Part shown: positions 8,691 to 21,233 of the stretch, piece by piece | How positions within the stretch are numbered: position 1 is the stretch's first letter | How the letters are laid out: every line of letters starts with the position of its first letter | From: an uncultured Alphaproteobacteria bacterium | Lineage (GTDB): Bacteria > Pseudomonadota > Alphaproteobacteria > HIMB59 > GCA-002718135 | DNA length: 64,000 nt | Direction of reading: 5' to 3' | NCBI GenBank assembly: GCA_902560675.1 | Contig: CACEMP010000001.1 | Location: 62,001 to 126,000, forward strand | Made by a program: the position numbers and the translations under genes | The notes under the pieces: generated by a model | Told to the model about the DNA's origin: nothing | What the model saw: the letters and a program-made list of their open reading frames with translations, nothing else | Database searches by the model: none

Positions 8691-9749
8691 TTATAATTTT
8701 TTTGCTGCACTAGTTTCTTTGATATTAGTTAGCTTTGTATATCTGTCTATCATTTGTGTTGTCTTATGACCACTTTGAGCCATAATTTCATGAGTAGGTA
8801 CACCATTCATTCTAGCCTGAGTAATTGAACCTATTCTTAGGCTATGACCAGAAATTTTATCACAATTTTCTATACCTGCTTCTGCAGCTCTTTTCTTTAA
8901 AATTAAAACAAAACTTGTGTCAGTCAAACTTACTTTTTGATTTTTACTATTAAGAATATATTTTTCTATATTGTTAGCTTTGTTAATTTTATAAAAGAGG
9001 GGGCCTGAGTCAATTAATGCCACCTCTAACCAATTTTTTAAAGCAATTACGGGACAATAAGGTGAGTTATTTTTAGGTAAATAAATCATTCTACCTTCAC
9101 CTTTTTGATCTGTTTTAGAAAAAGGTATTAAAACCTGAACTCCATCATCTTCAAAATTTAAATGCTCGTATTTCATTCCTAATAGTTCTGACCTTCTACA
9201 AAAACTATAAAAACCAATTAATATTAATGCTTTATCTCTTATGTTTCTAAAATCGTCATTATCCTCTGGAATTTTATTAATTATTTTTTCAATATCTGCT
9301 TTTAGAAGTTCCTTTGCTTGTCCAGATTTGTTATTTTTTTCATCTCTTACAATTGCACTTATCGTTTCTGATATGTTTGGATTTTTTCTATCAAACTGAA
9401 ACCCATTAACTCTATATTTATAAGTTATAGAGGCTAAAATTCTTTGTATAGTTGAAGCTTTATAGGAAGATGAAGAGTAGGGGTTATTATTTAACTTTTC
9501 TCTTCCTGGAATATTACTTGTTCCTTTTAATATTTTTGCTTCTGGATCTTCATGAAGCCAATCCATATAATTAGCAGTTAAAGCATATGCACTTTCTAAA
9601 TCATCAACATCTAATGGGCTACAATTGTATTTATTTTTGCAATAGTCGATGAATTTAAGCCAATCTCCATTGTATTTATCTTGTGTATTCTTTGCCTTAG
9701 ATTTTTCCTTTAATTTATTTACGTTATCATTTAATGATATTTTAACCAT
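8691..9749 (-). CDS. Tyrosine recombinase (phage/element-type integrase)
   Basis: A 352-residue site-specific recombinase with an N-terminal SAM-like DNA-binding domain (about 10-115) and a C-terminal catalytic domain. All catalytic residues are visible: R185 (CRRSEL), K212 (SKTDQ), H302 and R305 (HSLR), H328 (GHKTT) and nucleophile Y337. It would cut and rejoin DNA through a 3'-phosphotyrosine. The N-terminal spacing and the insertion around residues 75-95 are unlike chromosomal XerC/XerD. No excisionase, capsid or transfer gene lies nearby and no flanking tRNA is seen, so this is a solitary integrase, either an island remnant or a domesticated enzyme. Confidence 0.88.
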   Translation of the reverse strand: MVKISLNDNVNKLKEKSKAKNTQDKYNGDWLKFIDYCKNKYNCSPLDVDDLESAYALTANYMDWLHEDPEAKILKGTSNIPGREKLNNNPYSSSSYKASTIQRILASITYKYRVNGFQFDRKNPNISETISAIVRDEKNNKSGQAKELLKADIEKIINKIPEDNDDFRNIRDKALILIGFYSFCRRSELLGMKYEHLNFEDDGVQVLIPFSKTDQKGEGRMIYLPKNNSPYCPVIALKNWLEVALIDSGPLFYKINKANNIEKYILNSKNQKVSLTDTSFVLILKKRAAEAGIENCDKISGHSLRIGSITQARMNGVPTHEIMAQSGHKTTQMIDRYTKLTNIKETSAAKKL

Positions 9750-11847: not shown

Positions 11848-12684
11848 TTATTGCTGAGAGTTGTACTCAAGTGTTTGAACAGATATTTTCAATTTTTCAA
11901 TCGAACTATTAGAATTTGCTCTTCCATAAAAAACACCTTTTATGGGTGCAGCATAATTAGCATCTAGTCCACATGAAACTCTAATGTATCTTTCATCTGG
12001 ACTACAATTATTTGTTGGATCAAATCCAACCCAACCTAAATTTTCTATATAAAATTCAGCCCAAGCGTGTGTTGATTGATATTCTGAACTATGGGAATTA
12101 TTATGCATATATCCATTTACATATCGTGCTGGAATTCCTATTGAGCGGGCAGCACTAATCATAATGTGTGCTTGATCTTGACACACACCTTTTTTTTGTT
12201 TGTAAGCTACAATTGCTGTTGTTTCATTTGAAGTAGTCAGCGGTTTATATTCGACTCTTTCTGAAACTAGCTTTAATAATTCATGTGACACATCTAAATA
12301 ATTATTTGAAGTGCCATTTTTAGCATCATGTGCAAGTTCAATTATTGCATTATCAGATTGAGTTAATGATGTATATCTTAAATAAACTAAGGGATTAATT
12401 TTATCTAAAGGATTATTATATATTCCCTTTGTATCAAAAGTTTCTACTTTGCCATTAACAAAAAAATTTACACTTTTAAGTTTATTTTTATTTGAAAAAC
12501 TTTGTATAATATTTCCTTCTCCATCTATGTACATTTTTGATTTTTTAGATCCATCACGTGTTACATTCCAATTTATTATTTTTAATGCATTATTTTCTGA
12601 CGGATATAATTTTGTAGTTTGAATTAAGTTTTCAATTGGCAGATTATACTCATAAGTTGTAGTATGTTTAATAGAGAGTTCCAT
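11848..12684 (-). CDS. Transglutaminase-like cysteine peptidase family protein
   Basis: A 278-residue protein with an N-terminal beta domain (about 1-90, family start LSIKHTTTYEYNLP) and a transglutaminase-like papain-fold domain. The catalytic triad is visible: C168 in KKGVCQDQAH, H206 in STHAWAEF and D222 in GFDPTNN. Bacterial members act as peptidases or amide-forming or amide-exchanging enzymes. It is the last gene of an operon after the ATP-grasp and alpha-E genes, separated from alpha-E by 2 bases. This three-gene set recurs widely in proteobacteria and has been predicted to act on peptides or amide-linked metabolites; its product is not established. Confidence 0.88.
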   Translation of the reverse strand: MELSIKHTTTYEYNLPIENLIQTTKLYPSENNALKIINWNVTRDGSKKSKMYIDGEGNIIQSFSNKNKLKSVNFFVNGKVETFDTKGIYNNPLDKINPLVYLRYTSLTQSDNAIIELAHDAKNGTSNNYLDVSHELLKLVSERVEYKPLTTSNETTAIVAYKQKKGVCQDQAHIMISAARSIGIPARYVNGYMHNNSHSSEYQSTHAWAEFYIENLGWVGFDPTNNCSPDERYIRVSCGLDANYAAPIKGVFYGRANSNSSIEKLKISVQTLEYNSQQ

Positions 12685-12686
12685 AA

Positions 12687-13622
12687 TTAATTAAAAAATT
12701 CCTTATGTATATCTTTATCTACACTTGATATTTTATTAATAAATTTTGAAACAAATTCATGCAATCCGTAATCAATTATTGTTTGAATTTTTTCTTGTTG
12801 AATTGTTGTATTCAAATCTTTTAATGTATCATATATTTTATTTACTTTTGGTGGACTGCATTTAAGATCAATTAAGTGTTTAACAATATTTTGAATACAA
12901 AAACTTAATGACCTAGGACAACTATCATTAAGTATTAAAAAATCTGCAATTTTTGTTGCAGTAATTTCACCATCGTAAGCCCACCTAAATGCCCTAAATG
13001 AAGATAGTGATCTTAATAATATGCTCCATTGCATATTATCAATATTACTTCCAATATATTCTGGCTTAGGTAATAAAACAAAATATTTGACGTCAAGTAA
13101 TCTAGCAGAATTATCTGCTCTCTCAACAAATAAACCCAGTAATAAAAAGTTATATCCATCATTTCTAAGTAAGGAATTTATAGTTCCACGGAAAAGATTT
13201 ACTTGCTCTATTGCCCATTCGGTTAAATTTGGTAAGTCTGATGTTGAATATTTGTTTTGTTTAAAATTTAATATCTCTTGATATGCTTTGTTTATTGCAA
13301 GCCAAGACTCAGGTGTAAATGATGTTCTAACCACCAATGCATTATTTCTAGCATTTAAAATACAGTTATAAATTGATGATGGATTTTCTTCATCAAAAAA
13401 TAAGTAATCTTCAACATGCTTTTGAACAATATCATTATATTTTTTTTTATAACTTTCGATTGCACCAGATGCAGCTAATACTGACTCCCATTCATTATTA
13501 TAACCACGAGGATTAGGAAAAAGAGACATTCTATAACCAACATCAAGCAACCGTGATGTTGTTTCAGCACGCTCCATATATCTACTTATCCAGTATAAAT
13601 ATTCTGCTGTTCTGCTTAACAT
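12687..13622 (-). CDS. Alpha-E domain protein (DUF403)
   Basis: A 311-residue all-helical protein with the alpha-E family start LSRTAEYLYWISRYMERAET and the repeated ERADNSARLLDVKY (about residue 170). It has no catalytic residue I can name. The family is almost always linked to circularly permuted ATP-grasp and transglutaminase genes, as here, where it sits between them with 1- and 2-base gaps. It is thought to be a partner in the amide-ligation pathway. Expression should be tied to the glutamine-sensing leader upstream of the ATP-grasp gene. Confidence 0.87.
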   Translation of the reverse strand: MLSRTAEYLYWISRYMERAETTSRLLDVGYRMSLFPNPRGYNNEWESVLAASGAIESYKKKYNDIVQKHVEDYLFFDEENPSSIYNCILNARNNALVVRTSFTPESWLAINKAYQEILNFKQNKYSTSDLPNLTEWAIEQVNLFRGTINSLLRNDGYNFLLLGLFVERADNSARLLDVKYFVLLPKPEYIGSNIDNMQWSILLRSLSSFRAFRWAYDGEITATKIADFLILNDSCPRSLSFCIQNIVKHLIDLKCSPPKVNKIYDTLKDLNTTIQQEKIQTIIDYGLHEFVSKFINKISSVDKDIHKEFFN

Positions 13623-13623
13623 A

Positions 13624-15030
13624 TTACTCTGCTAACACCCATGTATCTTTAACACCTCCTCCTTGACTTGAATTTACTACAAAAGATCCTTCATTCATTG
13701 CAACACGAGTTAAACCACCAGAACTTAGTTGTGCTTCTTTACCTATTAGACAAAACGGTCTAAGATCAACACGCCTTCCTTCAACATGGTTTTTTATAAG
13801 TGTAGGAGTAAAAGATAAATCTAATAATGGTTGAGCAATATAGCCATTGGGATTTGTATATAATTTGTTTTTAAAAATATCTATTTCAGTTTTTGAAGAT
13901 TTTGGACCAATTAACATTCCATAACCTCCAGAACCATCGACTTCTTTGACCACAAGATTTGAAATATTTTCTAAAACATATTGAAGATGATCACTTTTTT
14001 CACAGTTCCAAGTTTCAACGTTATCTAATATTGGTTTTTCACCTAGATAAAATTTAATCATCTCAGGAACATATATGTATATAGCTTTGTCATCCGCTAT
14101 TCCAGCACCAGGTGCTGAGCAAATATTAACACCTCCTGTTTTATATACATCCATGATTCCTGGAACACCAATAACTGATTGTGAATTAAAACATAATGGA
14201 TCTAAAAAACCATCATCTATTCTTCTGTAAACCACATCAACTTTTTTAAGACCATCTACAGTTTTCATATAAAGATATTTTCCTTCAACAATTAAATCAT
14301 TAGATTCAACCATTTCTATGCCCATTTGATCTGACAAAAAACTATGTTCATAATAAGCACTATTTAAAGGTCCAGGAGTAAGTAATACTACAACGGGTTC
14401 AGAATTTTCACATTTTTGAGGTGCCAAACTCATAAGTGTTTGAAGTAATCTCGTAGGATAATTATCAATTGGTGTAACTCGATTTTTTAAAAATAAATCA
14501 GGAAACATTCTCATCATTATTTCTCTATTTTCTAACATATAAGAAACACCTGATGGTGTTCTACAATTATCCTCTAAAACGAAATAGCTATTGCTGTCAG
14601 TTCGCACTAAATCTATGCCCACAATAGGACTATAAATACCTCTTGGAGGTTTAAAACCAACCATCGCGGGTTCAAAAGAGATTTTTTTATAAATTAATTC
14701 TTTAGGAATTATATTTGCTTTTACAATTTCAGCATCGTTATAAATATCTAATAAAAATGCATTTATTGCTTTAGATCTTTGTATAACTCCTTTTTCTAAT
14801 TTAGACCATTCATTGTTTGTAAAAATTCTAGGAATTAAATCAAAAGGTATGATTCTTTCTCTTGCTGTTTCACTGTTTGTAGAAAATGTAATACCAATAT
14901 TTCGAAAATGAGTTTCTGCTTCTGCATTTTTTTCCAAAATAACTTTTGAACTCATATTCTCTAACCATGAACTTATATTATTATAATGATTTCTTATTTC
15001 AGAATCAGCTTGATACATTTCGTTAAACAT
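13624..15030 (-). CDS. Circularly permuted type 2 ATP-grasp protein
   Basis: A 468-residue predicted amidoligase of the DUF404/DUF407 circularly permuted ATP-grasp group. Recognisable landmarks are FDLIPRIFTNNEW (about 84-96), GIDLVRTDSNSYFVLEDNCR with PSGVSYMLENR following, VYRRIDDGFLDP, VKEVDGSGGYGM (phosphate loop) and RRVDLRPFCL. Such enzymes activate a carboxylate with ATP and join it to an amine. It is the first gene of the operon and its leader, about 250 nt, contains two glnA-type glutamine aptamers (15159-15275). This suggests that product formation follows cellular glutamine. The real substrate is unknown. Confidence 0.87.
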   Translation of the reverse strand: MFNEMYQADSEIRNHYNNISSWLENMSSKVILEKNAEAETHFRNIGITFSTNSETARERIIPFDLIPRIFTNNEWSKLEKGVIQRSKAINAFLLDIYNDAEIVKANIIPKELIYKKISFEPAMVGFKPPRGIYSPIVGIDLVRTDSNSYFVLEDNCRTPSGVSYMLENREIMMRMFPDLFLKNRVTPIDNYPTRLLQTLMSLAPQKCENSEPVVVLLTPGPLNSAYYEHSFLSDQMGIEMVESNDLIVEGKYLYMKTVDGLKKVDVVYRRIDDGFLDPLCFNSQSVIGVPGIMDVYKTGGVNICSAPGAGIADDKAIYIYVPEMIKFYLGEKPILDNVETWNCEKSDHLQYVLENISNLVVKEVDGSGGYGMLIGPKSSKTEIDIFKNKLYTNPNGYIAQPLLDLSFTPTLIKNHVEGRRVDLRPFCLIGKEAQLSSGGLTRVAMNEGSFVVNSSQGGGVKDTWVLAE

Positions 15031-15158
15031 ATTTAAAATGAACTAAGGAATGTGATTAATAATAATAAATTTTTTTTTAAAATCCATTCTATCATTATTA
15101 ATAACAAACCTTTCTTTCTGTTATTTCATGCTTAGCTATGGGAATTTAATAATGTCTG

Positions 15159-15206
15159 CGTTCCTTCGGTTTCCCCTACTTCCGATCTGTTAATACAGAT
15201 TGAACG
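15159..15206 (-). promoter_or_regulatory. glnA-type glutamine riboswitch aptamer, promoter-distal copy
   Basis: Read on the minus strand this 48-nt element is closed by CGTTC pairing with GAACG. It contains an ATCTGT/ACAGAT hairpin, the invariant core CGGAAGTAG, a short GG/CC hairpin and the 3' block CCGAAGGAACG. These are the conserved parts of the glnA RNA motif, the glutamine aptamer described in cyanobacteria. It ends 128 bases before the ATP-grasp start codon. That interval, containing AATAACA/TGTTATT able to pair, would be the expression platform; whether it acts on transcription or translation is not clear. Confidence 0.88.
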
Positions 15207-15224
15207 ATTTTATAACTTTGCACG

Positions 15225-15275
15225 CGTTCCTTCGACATAAGTCTACTTCCGTCTTGAAATTAATCAAAATGAACG
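15225..15275 (-). promoter_or_regulatory. glnA-type glutamine riboswitch aptamer, promoter-proximal copy
   Basis: A second 51-nt aptamer lies 18 nt upstream of the first on the minus strand. It has the same CGTTCA / GGAACG closing stem, a TTGA/TCAA hairpin, the core GACGGAAGTAG in its consensus form, a GAC/GTC hairpin and CGAAGGAACG. The two copies keep every conserved block but differ in the hairpin sequences, as expected for selected RNA structure. Tandem glutamine aptamers suggest a steeper response to glutamine. The remaining gap to the EamA gene, 15276-15454, is AT-rich DNA that must hold the promoter, but no confident -10/-35 pair stands out. Confidence 0.88.
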
Positions 15276-15454
15276 AATTTTCACACTATTTAAATTAATA
15301 CAAATAGTAAAATGTTTATGATAAAGTTTAAGTATGCAAAATTAACATAACTAAAAAAAATATTAAAATTTAATATTATTTTTTATTTAAAATAATAAAT
15401 TCAATTATTTTTTAATCATTTTTATAATATTAATGTTTATTTCAAGAAATAGAA

Positions 15455-16390
15455 TTATGATCGAAGAGTGGTTTTTGTTACTACAAGTATATTTTTTCTG
15501 TTCTCTCTAAATACTATATAAATTCCACTTACAATAATCATAAACATACCAATAAAGGAATAAAAATCTGGTAGTTCATCAAATATAAAAAAACCGAGTA
15601 TAACTGCAAAGATTAAATGAACATATTCTGCTGGGGCATTTATTAATGGAGATCCAATTCTATAAGCTCCTATTAAAGATATAATGCCTACACTTCCTAA
15701 AACTCCAATGAATAAAATAAAGAAAACAGTCTGAATGTCATTAAGGATCCAATGATTATTTAAATTATCAAGAATATTAAAATTTATATCTGAGTTATAT
15801 ATCAAAGCGCTAATTAATGTTCCTCCAATAAATGAACCCACATAAATATGAAAAGTCTGTTGAAATAATGAATCTTTATCAGCAGTCTTTTTAGCTAATG
15901 TCATGGATAAAGCATAACTACACGCCGTGATAATAGGAAATGTCATATAAATATTTATATTTGTAAAATCAGGTTTAATAATTAATAGTGTTCCAGAGAA
16001 ACCAACTATAATACTAAAAATTCTATTAATCCCTATTTCATTTTTTAAAATAAAATAAGAGAATATTGTAATAAAAAAAGGACTGACAAAAAATAAGCTT
16101 GTTGCTTCAGCAAGACCAATTTTACTTAATGAAATAAAAAATAATAGAAAACCTATAAAGAATGATAAACCTCTAAAGACTGCAACATAGGGATATGCAG
16201 AACTAAAGACAATATTCTGTTTTGTATAAAGTAAATAAAAAATTAATATCAAGGATCCTACTGTTGCTCTAAAAGCTAATATTTGAAGCAATGACAGATC
16301 ATTAACTGTTAACTTTATTAAAGTGTCGTGGACAATGAACAATAACATTCCAAATATAATCAGCAATAATCCTTTAATATTGTTATTCAT
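15455..16390 (-). CDS. EamA/DMT-family transporter
   Basis: A 311-residue inner-membrane carrier with about ten helices in two EamA repeats. The landmarks are LKNEIGINRIFSIIVGFSGT followed by LLIIKPD in the first repeat, and PLINAPAEYVHLIFAVILGF with a later FDELPDFYSFIG in the second. Probably a small-metabolite exporter. It lies upstream of, and in the same direction as, the riboswitch leader, but 424 bp separate it from the ATP-grasp gene, so it is a separate unit. Cargo unknown. Confidence 0.83.
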   Translation of the reverse strand: MNNNIKGLLLIIFGMLLFIVHDTLIKLTVNDLSLLQILAFRATVGSLILIFYLLYTKQNIVFSSAYPYVAVFRGLSFFIGFLLFFISLSKIGLAEATSLFFVSPFFITIFSYFILKNEIGINRIFSIIVGFSGTLLIIKPDFTNINIYMTFPIITACSYALSMTLAKKTADKDSLFQQTFHIYVGSFIGGTLISALIYNSDINFNILDNLNNHWILNDIQTVFFILFIGVLGSVGIISLIGAYRIGSPLINAPAEYVHLIFAVILGFFIFDELPDFYSFIGMFMIIVSGIYIVFRENRKNILVVTKTTLRS

Positions 16391-17830: not shown

Positions 17831-18445
17831 TTATTTCAACCCACCTTCTTTAAACAAAAAATTAGATACTTTTTCAATACCTTTATTATTTTTCATTTCA
17901 CCAAAAATATATGGCAACCCATTTCTTGCTTTTTTTACATCTTCTTTCATCTGCTCTAAATCAATATTCACATAAGGAGCAAGATCAATTTTATTTATTA
18001 AAAGTAAATCAGATTTCTTTATAGCAGGAGCTTTTTTTCTCGGTATGTCAGCTCCTTGTGCAACATCAATCATATAAATTGTTAAATCAACTAACTCTGG
18101 GCTAAAAGTTGCAGCTAAATTATCACCACCTGATTCAATAAGTATTAATTCTAAATCAGGAAATTTCTTTTTCATTTCATCTACTGCTAGTAAATTAATA
18201 CTACAATCCTCCCTAATAGCTGTATGTGGGCATCCACCAGTTTCTACACCTTTAATTCTTTCTATAGGCAGAACCTGTGCTTTCATCAAGTATTCAGCAT
18301 CTTCAGTTGTATAAATATCATTTGAAATAACTGCCATAGAAATTTTTTTACCTAAATGACGACATAATGCTTCTGTTAAGCTGGTTTTGCCAGTACCAAT
18401 TCCACCACCAATACCAACTTTTAAAGGACCATTTATATTATTCAC
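17831..18445 (-). CDS. ureG: Urease accessory GTPase UreG
   Basis: A 204-residue SIMIBI GTPase that powers nickel insertion into urease. It has the P-loop GGGIGTGKTS (13-22), the nickel-site motif ETGGCPHT with CPH (about 69-76), ESGGDNLAATFSPEL and the NKID guanine-recognition motif. Length is typical. It is the last gene of the urease operon and its ATG overlaps the ureF stop by 4 bases. It works with UreD, UreF and UreE on the apo-urease. Confidence 0.96.
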   Translation of the reverse strand: MNNINGPLKVGIGGGIGTGKTSLTEALCRHLGKKISMAVISNDIYTTEDAEYLMKAQVLPIERIKGVETGGCPHTAIREDCSINLLAVDEMKKKFPDLELILIESGGDNLAATFSPELVDLTIYMIDVAQGADIPRKKAPAIKKSDLLLINKIDLAPYVNIDLEQMKEDVKKARNGLPYIFGEMKNNKGIEKVSNFLFKEGGLK

Positions 18446-19077
18446 GTTAAATAAATCCTTGATTCTAAATTTTCATGCTTAATAGAAAAAATATCACTAA
18501 TAAAAAAAGATGAACCTATATCTTTTAGGGTTAGTTTATCTGAATAAACTAAAAAATCCTGAATTTGATTAATAAAAACAACATTAAGACTCTGACCATC
18601 TTTTTGAGACATAGGTATATGCTTTACACATACATTGATTGAATTAGAAATAAATGATTGTAGATAAAATTTAATTAAGTCATCAAACGAAATATTAAAA
18701 TGTAATCCGGCTTTTGCCAGACAATATATAAAAGATGTATTTTCGGGTAAAGATAACTCCCAACTATCTTTCATGATTTTACGAAATGAATTTCCCATAT
18801 CAATCATTTCAATCTGTCTTTCTTTAGTTGAAGCACTTGCTAAGATTAGTTCATTAATTTCTTCACTATTGTAAATTGACTTTATAAAAATATAATCATT
18901 TCTCAATGTTCCATAAAATAAAAGAGCATCTAAAAATTCTTTTACGTCAACTTTATTTTTAATTTTTTTATCGTCTATCAAAGCTTCTAAACCATGAGAA
19001 TATGCATAAGAACCTATGGGAAAAGAAGATGAAAACCATATTTGTAATATTTGATGAGGATCTTTGAATTTTTTCAT
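18442..19077 (-). CDS. ureF: Urease accessory protein UreF
   Basis: An all-helical 211-residue UreF, the scaffold that couples UreD-bound urease to the UreG GTPase. The family signature FSSSFPIGSYAYSHGLEAL is at the N-terminus. A longer open frame reaches back over ureE, but its first 29 codons are antisense-like leftovers of the ureE tail. The ATG at 19077, one base after the ureE stop, puts the signature at the usual distance. The C-terminus overlaps ureG by 4 bases. Confidence 0.92.
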   Translation of the reverse strand: MKKFKDPHQILQIWFSSSFPIGSYAYSHGLEALIDDKKIKNKVDVKEFLDALLFYGTLRNDYIFIKSIYNSEEINELILASASTKERQIEMIDMGNSFRKIMKDSWELSLPENTSFIYCLAKAGLHFNISFDDLIKFYLQSFISNSINVCVKHIPMSQKDGQSLNVVFINQIQDFLVYSDKLTLKDIGSSFFISDIFSIKHENLESRIYLT

Positions 19078-19078
19078 T

Positions 19079-19525
19079 TTAATGTTTATGACTGTGTGTT
19101 CTTCCCATCCCATATGCGCCACCTTCAGGATTAAATTTCTCAATAACTTTTTTAACATTTCCATGTAATTTTAAAATCATATCTAGAATTACAGCATCAT
19201 CTTGAATCAGAATTCTATTATCTTCAATTTGACAAGGTAAATGTCTATTTCCTATATGCCATATGATTTGTTTTAAATTATTACCTGTTATTTCAATTAA
19301 ATTTTCTTCTTTAGATAATACTTTTATTAAATTGCCATTTTCTAATTCAAAAAAATTATTTTCATCAACACTAACCGTTTCCTTAAGATTAACTAAAAAT
19401 TCAGTACCATTATTTGCAGTTAATTTTTTTCGACGAATAAACCTCTCTTCATAAGACAAAGAAATTTCATCTAATAATTTTTTATTATTTTTATTTTGAT
19501 CAATTATTTTGAAAGAATTTTTCAT
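19079..19525 (-). CDS. ureE: Urease nickel metallochaperone UreE
   Basis: A 148-residue UreE with the N-terminal peptide-binding-like domain and the metal-binding C-terminal domain, including WHIGNRHLPCQIE and the nickel-site histidine in LHGN. The tail is a short histidine cluster, THSHKH, rather than the long poly-His tail of some species. It delivers nickel to the UreDFG complex. It sits between ureC and ureF with 1-base gaps. Confidence 0.94.
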   Translation of the reverse strand: MKNSFKIIDQNKNNKKLLDEISLSYEERFIRRKKLTANNGTEFLVNLKETVSVDENNFFELENGNLIKVLSKEENLIEITGNNLKQIIWHIGNRHLPCQIEDNRILIQDDAVILDMILKLHGNVKKVIEKFNPEGGAYGMGRTHSHKH

Positions 19526-19526
19526 T

Positions 19527-21233
19527 TTAGTACATAAAATAGCGTTGAGCTAACGGTAATGTTATAGCTGGTTCACAAGTTATTAGCTCTCCATCAGCAA
19601 ATACCTCATAAGTTTCTGGATTAACCTCTATTTTCGGGCAATAATCATTCAATAGCATATTATTTTTAGAAATTTTTCTTATATTTTTTACTGGTAATAA
19701 AGATTTACTAACTCCAAAATTTTTAAATGTATCTTTATCCAAAGAAGCTTTACTTACAAAAGTGACAGTAGATTTTTCTAATGATTTTCCAAAAGAAGAA
19801 AACATTGGTCTTGAGTAAACTGGTTGAGGTGTTGGAATAGATGCATTGGGATCACCCATTTGTGCACACGCAATACTTCCACCTTGTAATACCATTTCAG
19901 GTTTAACACCGAAAAAAGCTCTATCCCATATAACAATATCAGCACGTTTATTTTTTTCAATGCTTCCAATATGATCAGAAATACCATGTGCTATTGCAGG
20001 ATTAATGGTATATTTAGCGATATACCTTTTAACACGAAGATTATCATTATCGCCCTTCTCTTCTTTTAATTGTCCACGTTGCACTTTCATTTTATGTGCT
20101 GTTTGCCATGTTCTAATAATAACTTCACCAACACGACCCATGGCTTGACTATCAGAAGCAATAATTGAAAAAGCACCCATGTCATGAAGTATATCTTCCG
20201 CAGCAATTGTTTCTTTACGAATACGACTTTCAGCAAAAGCAACATCCTCAGGTATTGATTTATCTAAGTGATGACAAACCATTAACATATCTAAATGTTC
20301 TTCGACTGTGTTAACTGTATAAGGTCTTGTTGGGTTAGTAGAAGAAGGAATTACATATTCTTCACCACAAACTTTGATTATGTCTGGTGCATGACCTCCA
20401 CCAGCTCCTTCAGTATGAAAAGCGTGAATTGTTCTTCCGTTAATTGCTTTAATTGTACTCTCGACAAATCCACTTTCATTTAATGTATCTGTGTGAATCA
20501 TGACTTGGATATCATGGGTATCTGCTACATTTAAACAATTATCAATTGCTGCTGGGGTTGTACCCCAATCCTCATGTAATTTAAGTGAACTTGCTCCACC
20601 GATTACTTGTTCTTCTAGAGCTTGAGGCAATGAACTATTTCCCTTACCAGCAAAAGCTAAGTTCATAGAAAATGCATCAGCAGATTGTATCATTTTCTCT
20701 ATATGCCATGGTCCAGGTGTAACTGTTGTCGCTAAAGTACCATGTGCAGGACCAGTTCCCCCACCTAACATAGTTGTTATTCCTGAATGCAGTGCATCAT
20801 CAATTTGCTGAGGACAAATAAAATGAATATGACTATCAAAACCTCCTGCTGTGATAATTTTTCCTTCACCTGCAATTATTTCTGTTCCAGGGCCAATAAT
20901 AATATTCACATTTGGCTGGGTGTCTGGATTACCAGCCTTTCCAATTTCATTAATCAAGCCATCTTTAAGACCAATATCTGCTTTGTAAATTCCTTTTACA
21001 TCAACTATTAGTGCGTTTGTTATAGCAGTATCGACTGCACCACCTTTACGAGACATTTGAGACTGCCCCATTCCATCTCGAATTACTTTACCTCCACCAA
21101 ATTTTACTTCCTCACCGTAAGTTGTTAAATCTTTTTCTACTTCAATAAAAAGTTCTGTGTCAGCAAGCCTAACTTTATCACCAGTAGTTGGTCCATACAT
21201 ATCAGCATAAGCATCTCTTTTTATTATTTTCAT
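19527..21233 (-). CDS. ureC: Urease alpha subunit UreC
   Basis: The 568-residue catalytic subunit that hydrolyses urea to ammonia and carbamate. The dinuclear nickel site is complete: H135 and H137 (DSHIHF), the lysine to be carbamylated K218 (LKLHEDWG), H247 (IHTDTLNE), H273 ([15 protein letters not shown]) and D361 (ASDSQ). The mobile flap has C320 and H321 (VCHHL). Full length, no frameshift. It overlaps ureB by 4 bases. Together with ureA and ureB it forms the three-subunit bacterial enzyme. Confidence 0.97.

Follow-up and report, generated by a model that had tools for sequence, protein, structure and literature searches.

Glutamine riboswitches were described in a 2018 review as restricted to cyanobacteria, where they lie mainly before DUF4278 genes such as gifB, and the associations with glnA, PII and ammonium-transporter genes were given there only for environmental sequences and uncultured strains (PMC6316151); the original prediction, which took glutamine aptamers to be best known upstream of glnA in cyanobacteria, is therefore to be corrected on this point, since the glnA link comes from the environmental sequences. 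The cyanobacterial members of type 1 and type 2 that have been tested are reported to activate expression (PMC6316151). Four described systems are close to the locus presented here, which was found in a window (the whole stretch of DNA analysed, 64,000 nucleotides) from an uncultured alphaproteobacterium. With the glnA motif (RF01739) it shares the sequence and structure of each aptamer and the nitrogen-gene targets, and tandem copies of that motif have already been reported (PMC2864571, PMC9481103); what differs is the location on alphaproteobacterial chromosomes, the Anbu-type operon as a target, the probable OFF logic, and a proposed stem (P0) and coupled mini-ORF, neither of which is covered by the 53 positions of the Rfam model. 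The Downstream-peptide motif or type 2 glutamine riboswitch (RF01704) likewise combines a glutamine aptamer with a short ORF downstream of it (PMC2864571), whereas here the aptamers belong to RF01739, and the mini-ORF abuts the gene start with no sign of peptide conservation. In the tandem glycine riboswitch, paired like aptamers act together (PMC5666159), while its ligand and fold are different, and cooperativity would be hypothetical for our case. The Anbu operon has the same three enzyme genes in the same order, and its expression is also tied to nitrogen status, but in the present locus no Anbu gene adjoins them, PF00227 has no match in the window's genome (82% complete), and the control is by RNA. 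Roles proposed for Anbu-type operons were still described as unconfirmed in 2017 (PMC6376114).

The tandem aptamers and the operon

Two glutamine aptamers lie head to tail on the minus strand of the window, aptamer 1 at 15221–15277 and aptamer 2 at 15155–15208. When cmscan was run over the whole window, they scored 59.1 bits (E = 1.7e-10) and 58.3 bits (E = 2.8e-10), respectively, both over the full length of the RF01739 model (positions 1–53 of 53) and against a gathering score of 35. Thus, the covariance-model check proposed together with the original prediction of two complete copies places both of them well above the threshold, and a chance origin is ruled out by E-values of about 1e-10 each. 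CGTTCA, GGAAGTAG and GAAGGAACG are kept in both copies, and in the cmscan alignments the RF01739 core CGUUCA / GGAAGUAG / GAAGGAACG is kept and P1, P2 and P3 are paired in both, with P2 and P3 differing in sequence between aptamers 1 and 2 and maintaining their pairing, just as predicted. The P1 helices are 18 nt apart (15224–15207) and aptamer 1 starts 245 nt upstream of the ATP-grasp ATG at 15030, in agreement with the 18-nt spacing and the leader of about 250 nt claimed before. No intrinsic terminator was found in the leader (14950–15480). By sequence and conservation, which establish the identity and position of the aptamers, the feature is a real tandem type 1 glutamine riboswitch upstream of an Anbu-type operon, from which we infer glutamine binding by the tandem aptamers, repression and translational control.

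The operon, on the same strand, encodes a circularly permuted ATP-grasp protein (CP_ATPgrasp_2, 468 aa, 13624–15030, Pfam 505 bits), an Alpha-E protein (311 aa, 12687–13622, Pfam 281 bits) and a transglutaminase-like protein (278 aa, 11848–12684, Bact_transglu_N and Transglut_core with Pfam 40 and 84.5 bits). In the last of these, a series of Cys, His and Asp was seen by eye, which we take to be the typical transglutaminase motif. The order ATP-grasp, Alpha-E, transglutaminase is that of the enzymes in the Anbu operon, the flanks are ORFs for a fatty-acid desaturase and an EamA transporter, and in all eight genomes of the window's genus that have both PF00227 and the ATP-grasp gene the two are on different contigs. 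The earlier description as an operon of unknown product stands in so far as no product can be assigned, and is to be refined in that the three enzyme genes are the Anbu operon set without Anbu.

In addition, a urease cluster (urease alpha, UreE, UreF and UreG/CobW, by Pfam) is located at 17831–21233 on the same, minus, strand upstream of the operon, and the genes between the two include those for an EamA transporter and an ion channel. A 2013 marine metagenome study reports that these operon domains correlate with urea metabolism (PMC3597751). A conserved urease neighbourhood was considered and rejected as not general, as ureC/ureG occur within 10 kb upstream only in the window and in L106–L108, and downstream in L114, among loci that are often truncated by the end of a contig. 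An Rfam match to 5_ureB_sRNA (20795–21080, plus strand, 98.9 bits) lies antisense inside the urease alpha-subunit gene and probably merely reflects conserved urease coding sequence. Furthermore, a gene for a tyrosine recombinase of the phage-integrase family (8691–9749, minus strand, Pfam 63.3 bits) is present about 2 kb past the end of the operon.

Regulon and distribution in two families

The window's genome carries eight RF01739 aptamers in four tandem pairs, which precede glnA, two ammonium-transporter genes (amt) and the ATP-grasp operon (ORFs by Pfam), and a P-II gene is situated immediately upstream of the glnA leader. The tandem riboswitch is thus a member of a glutamine-riboswitch regulon made up of these four targets. 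Within the window's family, RF01739 was found in 106 of 110 genomes and the ATP-grasp gene in 57, all of them within the window's genus and three of them without the gene start. All 54 readable leaders of this gene carry aptamers, two in 52 cases and one in the other two, in which the end of the contig leaves just 192 or 210 nt of upstream sequence; the aptamers were counted here by a looser regular expression, and a stricter one recovers only 4 of the 54. In another locus, L012 (G009), a single glutamine aptamer (1501–1558) without the P0 linker or tail stands before a divergent ammonium-transporter-like gene.

The same association is present in a second family, f10, where the aptamer occurs in 23 of 32 genomes and the full-length ATP-grasp gene in the same 23 (a 24th match is weak and covers residues 166–251 only). 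The aptamer is directly upstream of the gene in all 23 (in L205 by its Rfam position), the protein is 59–62% identical to that of the window, and all three operon genes are present in the loci viewed at length (L209–L211). No further aptamer was found in 21 of the 23 assemblies; G501 has one extra, before an amt-like gene, and G498 has three. The latter (L206, L207 and L208) are short and alike, with near-identical downstream sequence, and lie on three contigs before a small ORF, which makes them resemble a repeated unit that is perhaps mobile. A promoter-like pair, TTGATT and TATAA(T/C), was seen by eye just 5' of the aptamer in L095–L098 and L187–L204 except L196, which suggests that the transcript of those leaders starts a few bases before P1. 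Because the genomes are related and share their inheritance, the counts in f10 and in the window's family do not represent independent events.

The comparison of leaders that the original prediction called for accordingly finds aptamers in 54 of 54 leaders of the genus and in 23 of 23 f10 genomes with the gene; the alphaproteobacterial host that it assumed is supported, and its tie of the operon to glutamine status gains strength from the like pairs that precede glnA and the two amt genes, and from f10, where the operon is the sole target found in 21 of 23 genomes. Beyond these families, RF01739 was detected, in samples screened with stricter filters, in six genomes out of 385 from the class, namely that of the window, one from the same genus and four from f10, and in one of 398 genomes of the phylum, which is again the window's own. 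The operon is also present in SAR11, with ATP-grasp proteins 73–76% identical to that of the window (27 loci). By the core motifs, no aptamer was seen in the 27 named Pelagibacteraceae/Pelagibacterales loci (28 kept, L178 left out), which were sampled from the best 80 of 575 relatives and viewed over 420 nt upstream (63 nt only in L161); L172 has one isolated GGAAGTA, and an Rfam scan of four whole SAR11 loci gave no RF01739. A phage origin was also considered and rejected, as the exact tandem-linker pattern matches 0 viral contigs and blastn against phage yielded nothing beyond short matches at chance level, in 12 records, although divergent phage copies, which have been published for the glutamine riboswitch (PMC9004378), may exist.

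The proposed stem P0 and the mini-ORF

The linker between the two aptamers (CGUGC AA AGUUAU, 15212–15224, minus strand) is complementary to a tail beyond aptamer 2 (AUAGCU AA GCAUG, 15127–15139, minus strand), and the proposed stem P0 would enclose aptamer 2. In the window the duplex has -11.2 kcal/mol, a value reached by 5 of 2000 shuffles. All of the 56 distinct tandem leaders compared (36 ATP-grasp, 12 glnA and 8 amt) have both the pattern C[A/G]UGCA..GUU in the linker and AUA[A/G]CU..GCAUG in the tail; these leaders are a subset of the family's pairs from which identical sequences and repeats of genomes already included (L106–L153, L181 and L185) were left out. Among them are 37 distinct linker-tail pairs with -10.4 to -11.9 kcal/mol, compared with shuffled means of -3.4 to -4.6; for each pair, between 2 and 28 of 2000 mononucleotide shuffles do as well. 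RNAalifold recovers the CAUGC/GCAUG part of P0 but misses its inner helix and also P1 of aptamer 2; the inner helix of P0 was judged from the patterns and duplex energies, because MAFFT places the glnA linkers one base off in alignment A1. Two-sided changes occur in P2 and P3 of both aptamers, and P1 is uninformative for covariation because it is invariant. For P0, only one-sided changes were seen among these leaders (A-U to G-U in four sequences, and U-G versus U-A between genes), and L016 loses two inner pairs. Taken together, a P0 stem formed from linker and downstream tail probably carries aptamer 2 in the window's family, a structure that is plausible on these sequence patterns and energies though short of proof.

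The lack of two-sided covariation in P0, and its mean probability of 0.41 in unconstrained full-leader folds (52 leaders of the window's family), where it is only partly formed, would also fit a pseudo-cooperative arrangement in which the two successive aptamers are switches independent of each other, with separate platforms and no shared P0, whichever the direction of control. Tandem glutamine riboswitches have indeed been called pseudo-cooperative, in a survey with 157 doublets and 4 triplets (PMC9481103). However, just 16–18 nt separate the P1 helices, the linker is conserved and complementary to the segment past aptamer 2, and no platform-like feature was seen by eye between the aptamers. 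We therefore consider independent switches rather unlikely, and the window's group may share one platform.

A candidate for this expression platform is a hairpin at 15100–15125 (minus strand, AAUAAC...GUUAUU), read from the sequence, whose loop contains the Shine-Dalgarno (SD)-like GAAAGG (15114–15109). Similar hairpins were seen by eye in the ATP-grasp leaders (11 of the 54 were viewed). It is followed by a leader mini-ORF of 20 codons (MIEWILKKNLLLLITFLSSF, 15033–15095, minus strand), which ends 2 nt before the ATP-grasp ATG. In all 54 leaders the stop of such a mini-ORF falls between positions -6 and +8 relative to the ATP-grasp ATG, compared with 3.8 expected from shuffles, its own ATG coincides with the end of the SD hairpin or comes just past it, and the frame has 16–25 codons; the leaders are related and hence not independent cases, and in 48 of them there is a single candidate ATG, the one with the nearest stop being taken in the six with several. 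The mini-ORF overlaps the ATP-grasp ATG in 35 of the 54. A selected leader peptide was rejected, as the polymorphic columns show no codon-position bias (17, 18 and 19 in 34 distinct 63-nt frames). In the window, the SD of the mini-ORF has -3.8 kcal/mol and the ATP-grasp start 0.0 with no SD match, so translational coupling from the mini-ORF to the ATP-grasp gene is likely there, as far as the sequence goes. The SD of the mini-ORF is the stronger one in only 24 of the 54 leaders, and outside the window coupling is perhaps optional.

Direction of control and its meaning

We consider it most likely, with a probability of roughly two in three, that this tandem type 1 switch in the leader of the three-gene operon, as a member of the regulon, turns expression OFF, with P0 and coupling as probable parts. 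Linker and tail would form P0 around aptamer 2. When glutamine is plentiful, both aptamers would fold, translation from the leader would be blocked and the operon would be silent; when nitrogen is short, the aptamers would open and the operon would be made, the ribosome first reading the mini-ORF, whose stop at the ATP-grasp start would pass translation on to the operon by coupling.

One indication of the direction comes from f10. In G516 and G517 the ATP-grasp ATG is three bases past P1 (GAAGGAACGcatATG), therefore the SD can only be GAAGGA of the aptamer itself, and since it is inside the aptamer core, the folded aptamer should block the ribosome and glutamine should repress. In several other f10 leaders, a UCUUUC segment was seen by eye to have two possible partners, GAAGGA in the aptamer core and the SD that precedes the ATG. 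In folding of 20 f10 leaders (17 distinct spacers), forcing the aptamer lowered the mean SD accessibility from 0.52 to 0.42, and the difference of 0.108 was reached by none of 40 spacer shuffles (shuffle mean 0.033). Four of the 20 go the opposite way. So does L203, one of the two compact leaders, in a separate run whose model leaves the GAAG core unpaired and hence cannot show occlusion; L205, which has no match to the regular expression, was left out of both runs and the two compact leaders out of the 20-leader run. In the window's own family the folds give no sign of a switch, with an SD accessibility of 0.77 with the aptamers forced and 0.79 without, lower in 32 of 52 leaders. For this family, OFF control is deduced from f10, from the leaders shared with glnA and amt, and from the induction of the operon in Pseudomonas putida. 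There, the Anbu and ATP-grasp genes are reported to exceed their level on ammonium by 4.4 and 4.0 log2 when grown on nitrate (PMC8050072) and PP2685–PP2687 to rise under nitrogen limitation (PMC3325844), the homology to the window operon being taken from the gene names. Moreover, induction by nitrogen starvation is cited in two Anbu papers (PMC6376114, PMC5666114), and the NtrC/sigma54 regulon of Burkholderia cenocepacia is reported to include a transglutaminase-like cluster (PMC5491218), which may be homologous to this operon.

The own-family folds are also compatible with an ON switch as in cyanobacterial gifB, in which glutamine binding would expose the start and the operon would be expressed when nitrogen is plentiful, for example for a nitrogen store. 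Against it stand the SD held by the aptamer itself in G516 and G517 and the same type of leader before glnA and amt, genes that are normally required at low glutamine. Despite the precedent of the tested cyanobacterial members of both types, which activate (PMC6316151), this makes an ON switch improbable, and the reported induction of the P. putida operon by nitrogen limitation (PMC8050072, PMC3325844) also speaks against it. That the aptamers are decayed or passive copies from leader duplication with no present control of the operon is very improbable: the four leaders of the genome are similar enough for duplicates, but the aptamer cores do not vary at all among the 56 distinct tandem leaders, whereas base pairs of P2 and P3 are exchanged with both partners altered, and the association recurs in f10 with ATP-grasp proteins about 60% identical. 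The earlier suggestion of a Gln/Glu-containing peptide or amide store, made or turned over by the operon, is not supported. No product was identified, and the SD inside the aptamer in G516 and G517 and the reported P. putida induction point to expression at low glutamine, which fits scavenging, turnover or protein modification better than the synthesis of a store.

As to the glutamine sensor, PF08335 (the GlnD domain) is missing from all 25 genus genomes searched, the window's included, whereas all 16 genomes searched from the sister family f2 have it; genome incompleteness hardly explains 25 misses. A sigma54-activator domain is present in 22 of these 25 genomes, and in 19 it lies within a frame of 444–462 residues, in a search that was positive in all 14 control genomes and is non-specific for NtrC. 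RF01739 was absent from three f2 genomes searched whole and from nine f2 ATP-grasp loci, and f2 has a different ATP-grasp gene (49% identical), which in 9 of 12 genomes adjoins a second proteasome-like gene in divergent orientation. Loss of GlnD as a rule for riboswitch carriers was rejected, as PF08335 is found in 22 of 32 f10 genomes. We only tentatively suggest that RNA replaced GlnD, with a P0-locked tandem acting through one platform to repress cooperatively the regulon of glnA, amt and the operon, and with the operon tied to glutamine in two families.

In the titles, beginnings of abstracts and passages of the papers searched, no report was found of a glutamine riboswitch before an ATP-grasp/Alpha-E/transglutaminase operon, nor any paper joining 'riboswitch', 'transglutaminase', 'ATP-grasp' and 'glutamine'; what is new is probably the taxonomic setting and the extended architecture of a probable OFF tandem switch. 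Associations of the glnA and amt type are now placed in the genomes of two alphaproteobacterial families and, if the OFF reading is true, the logic is opposite to that of the cyanobacterial members that have been tested. In f10, where the Anbu-type operon is the main or only target of the glutamine riboswitch, this gives a ligand-defined handle on the operon, whose product should matter at low glutamine. Furthermore, the window's genus, being without the GlnD domain, offers a test case for RNA replacing a protein nitrogen sensor.
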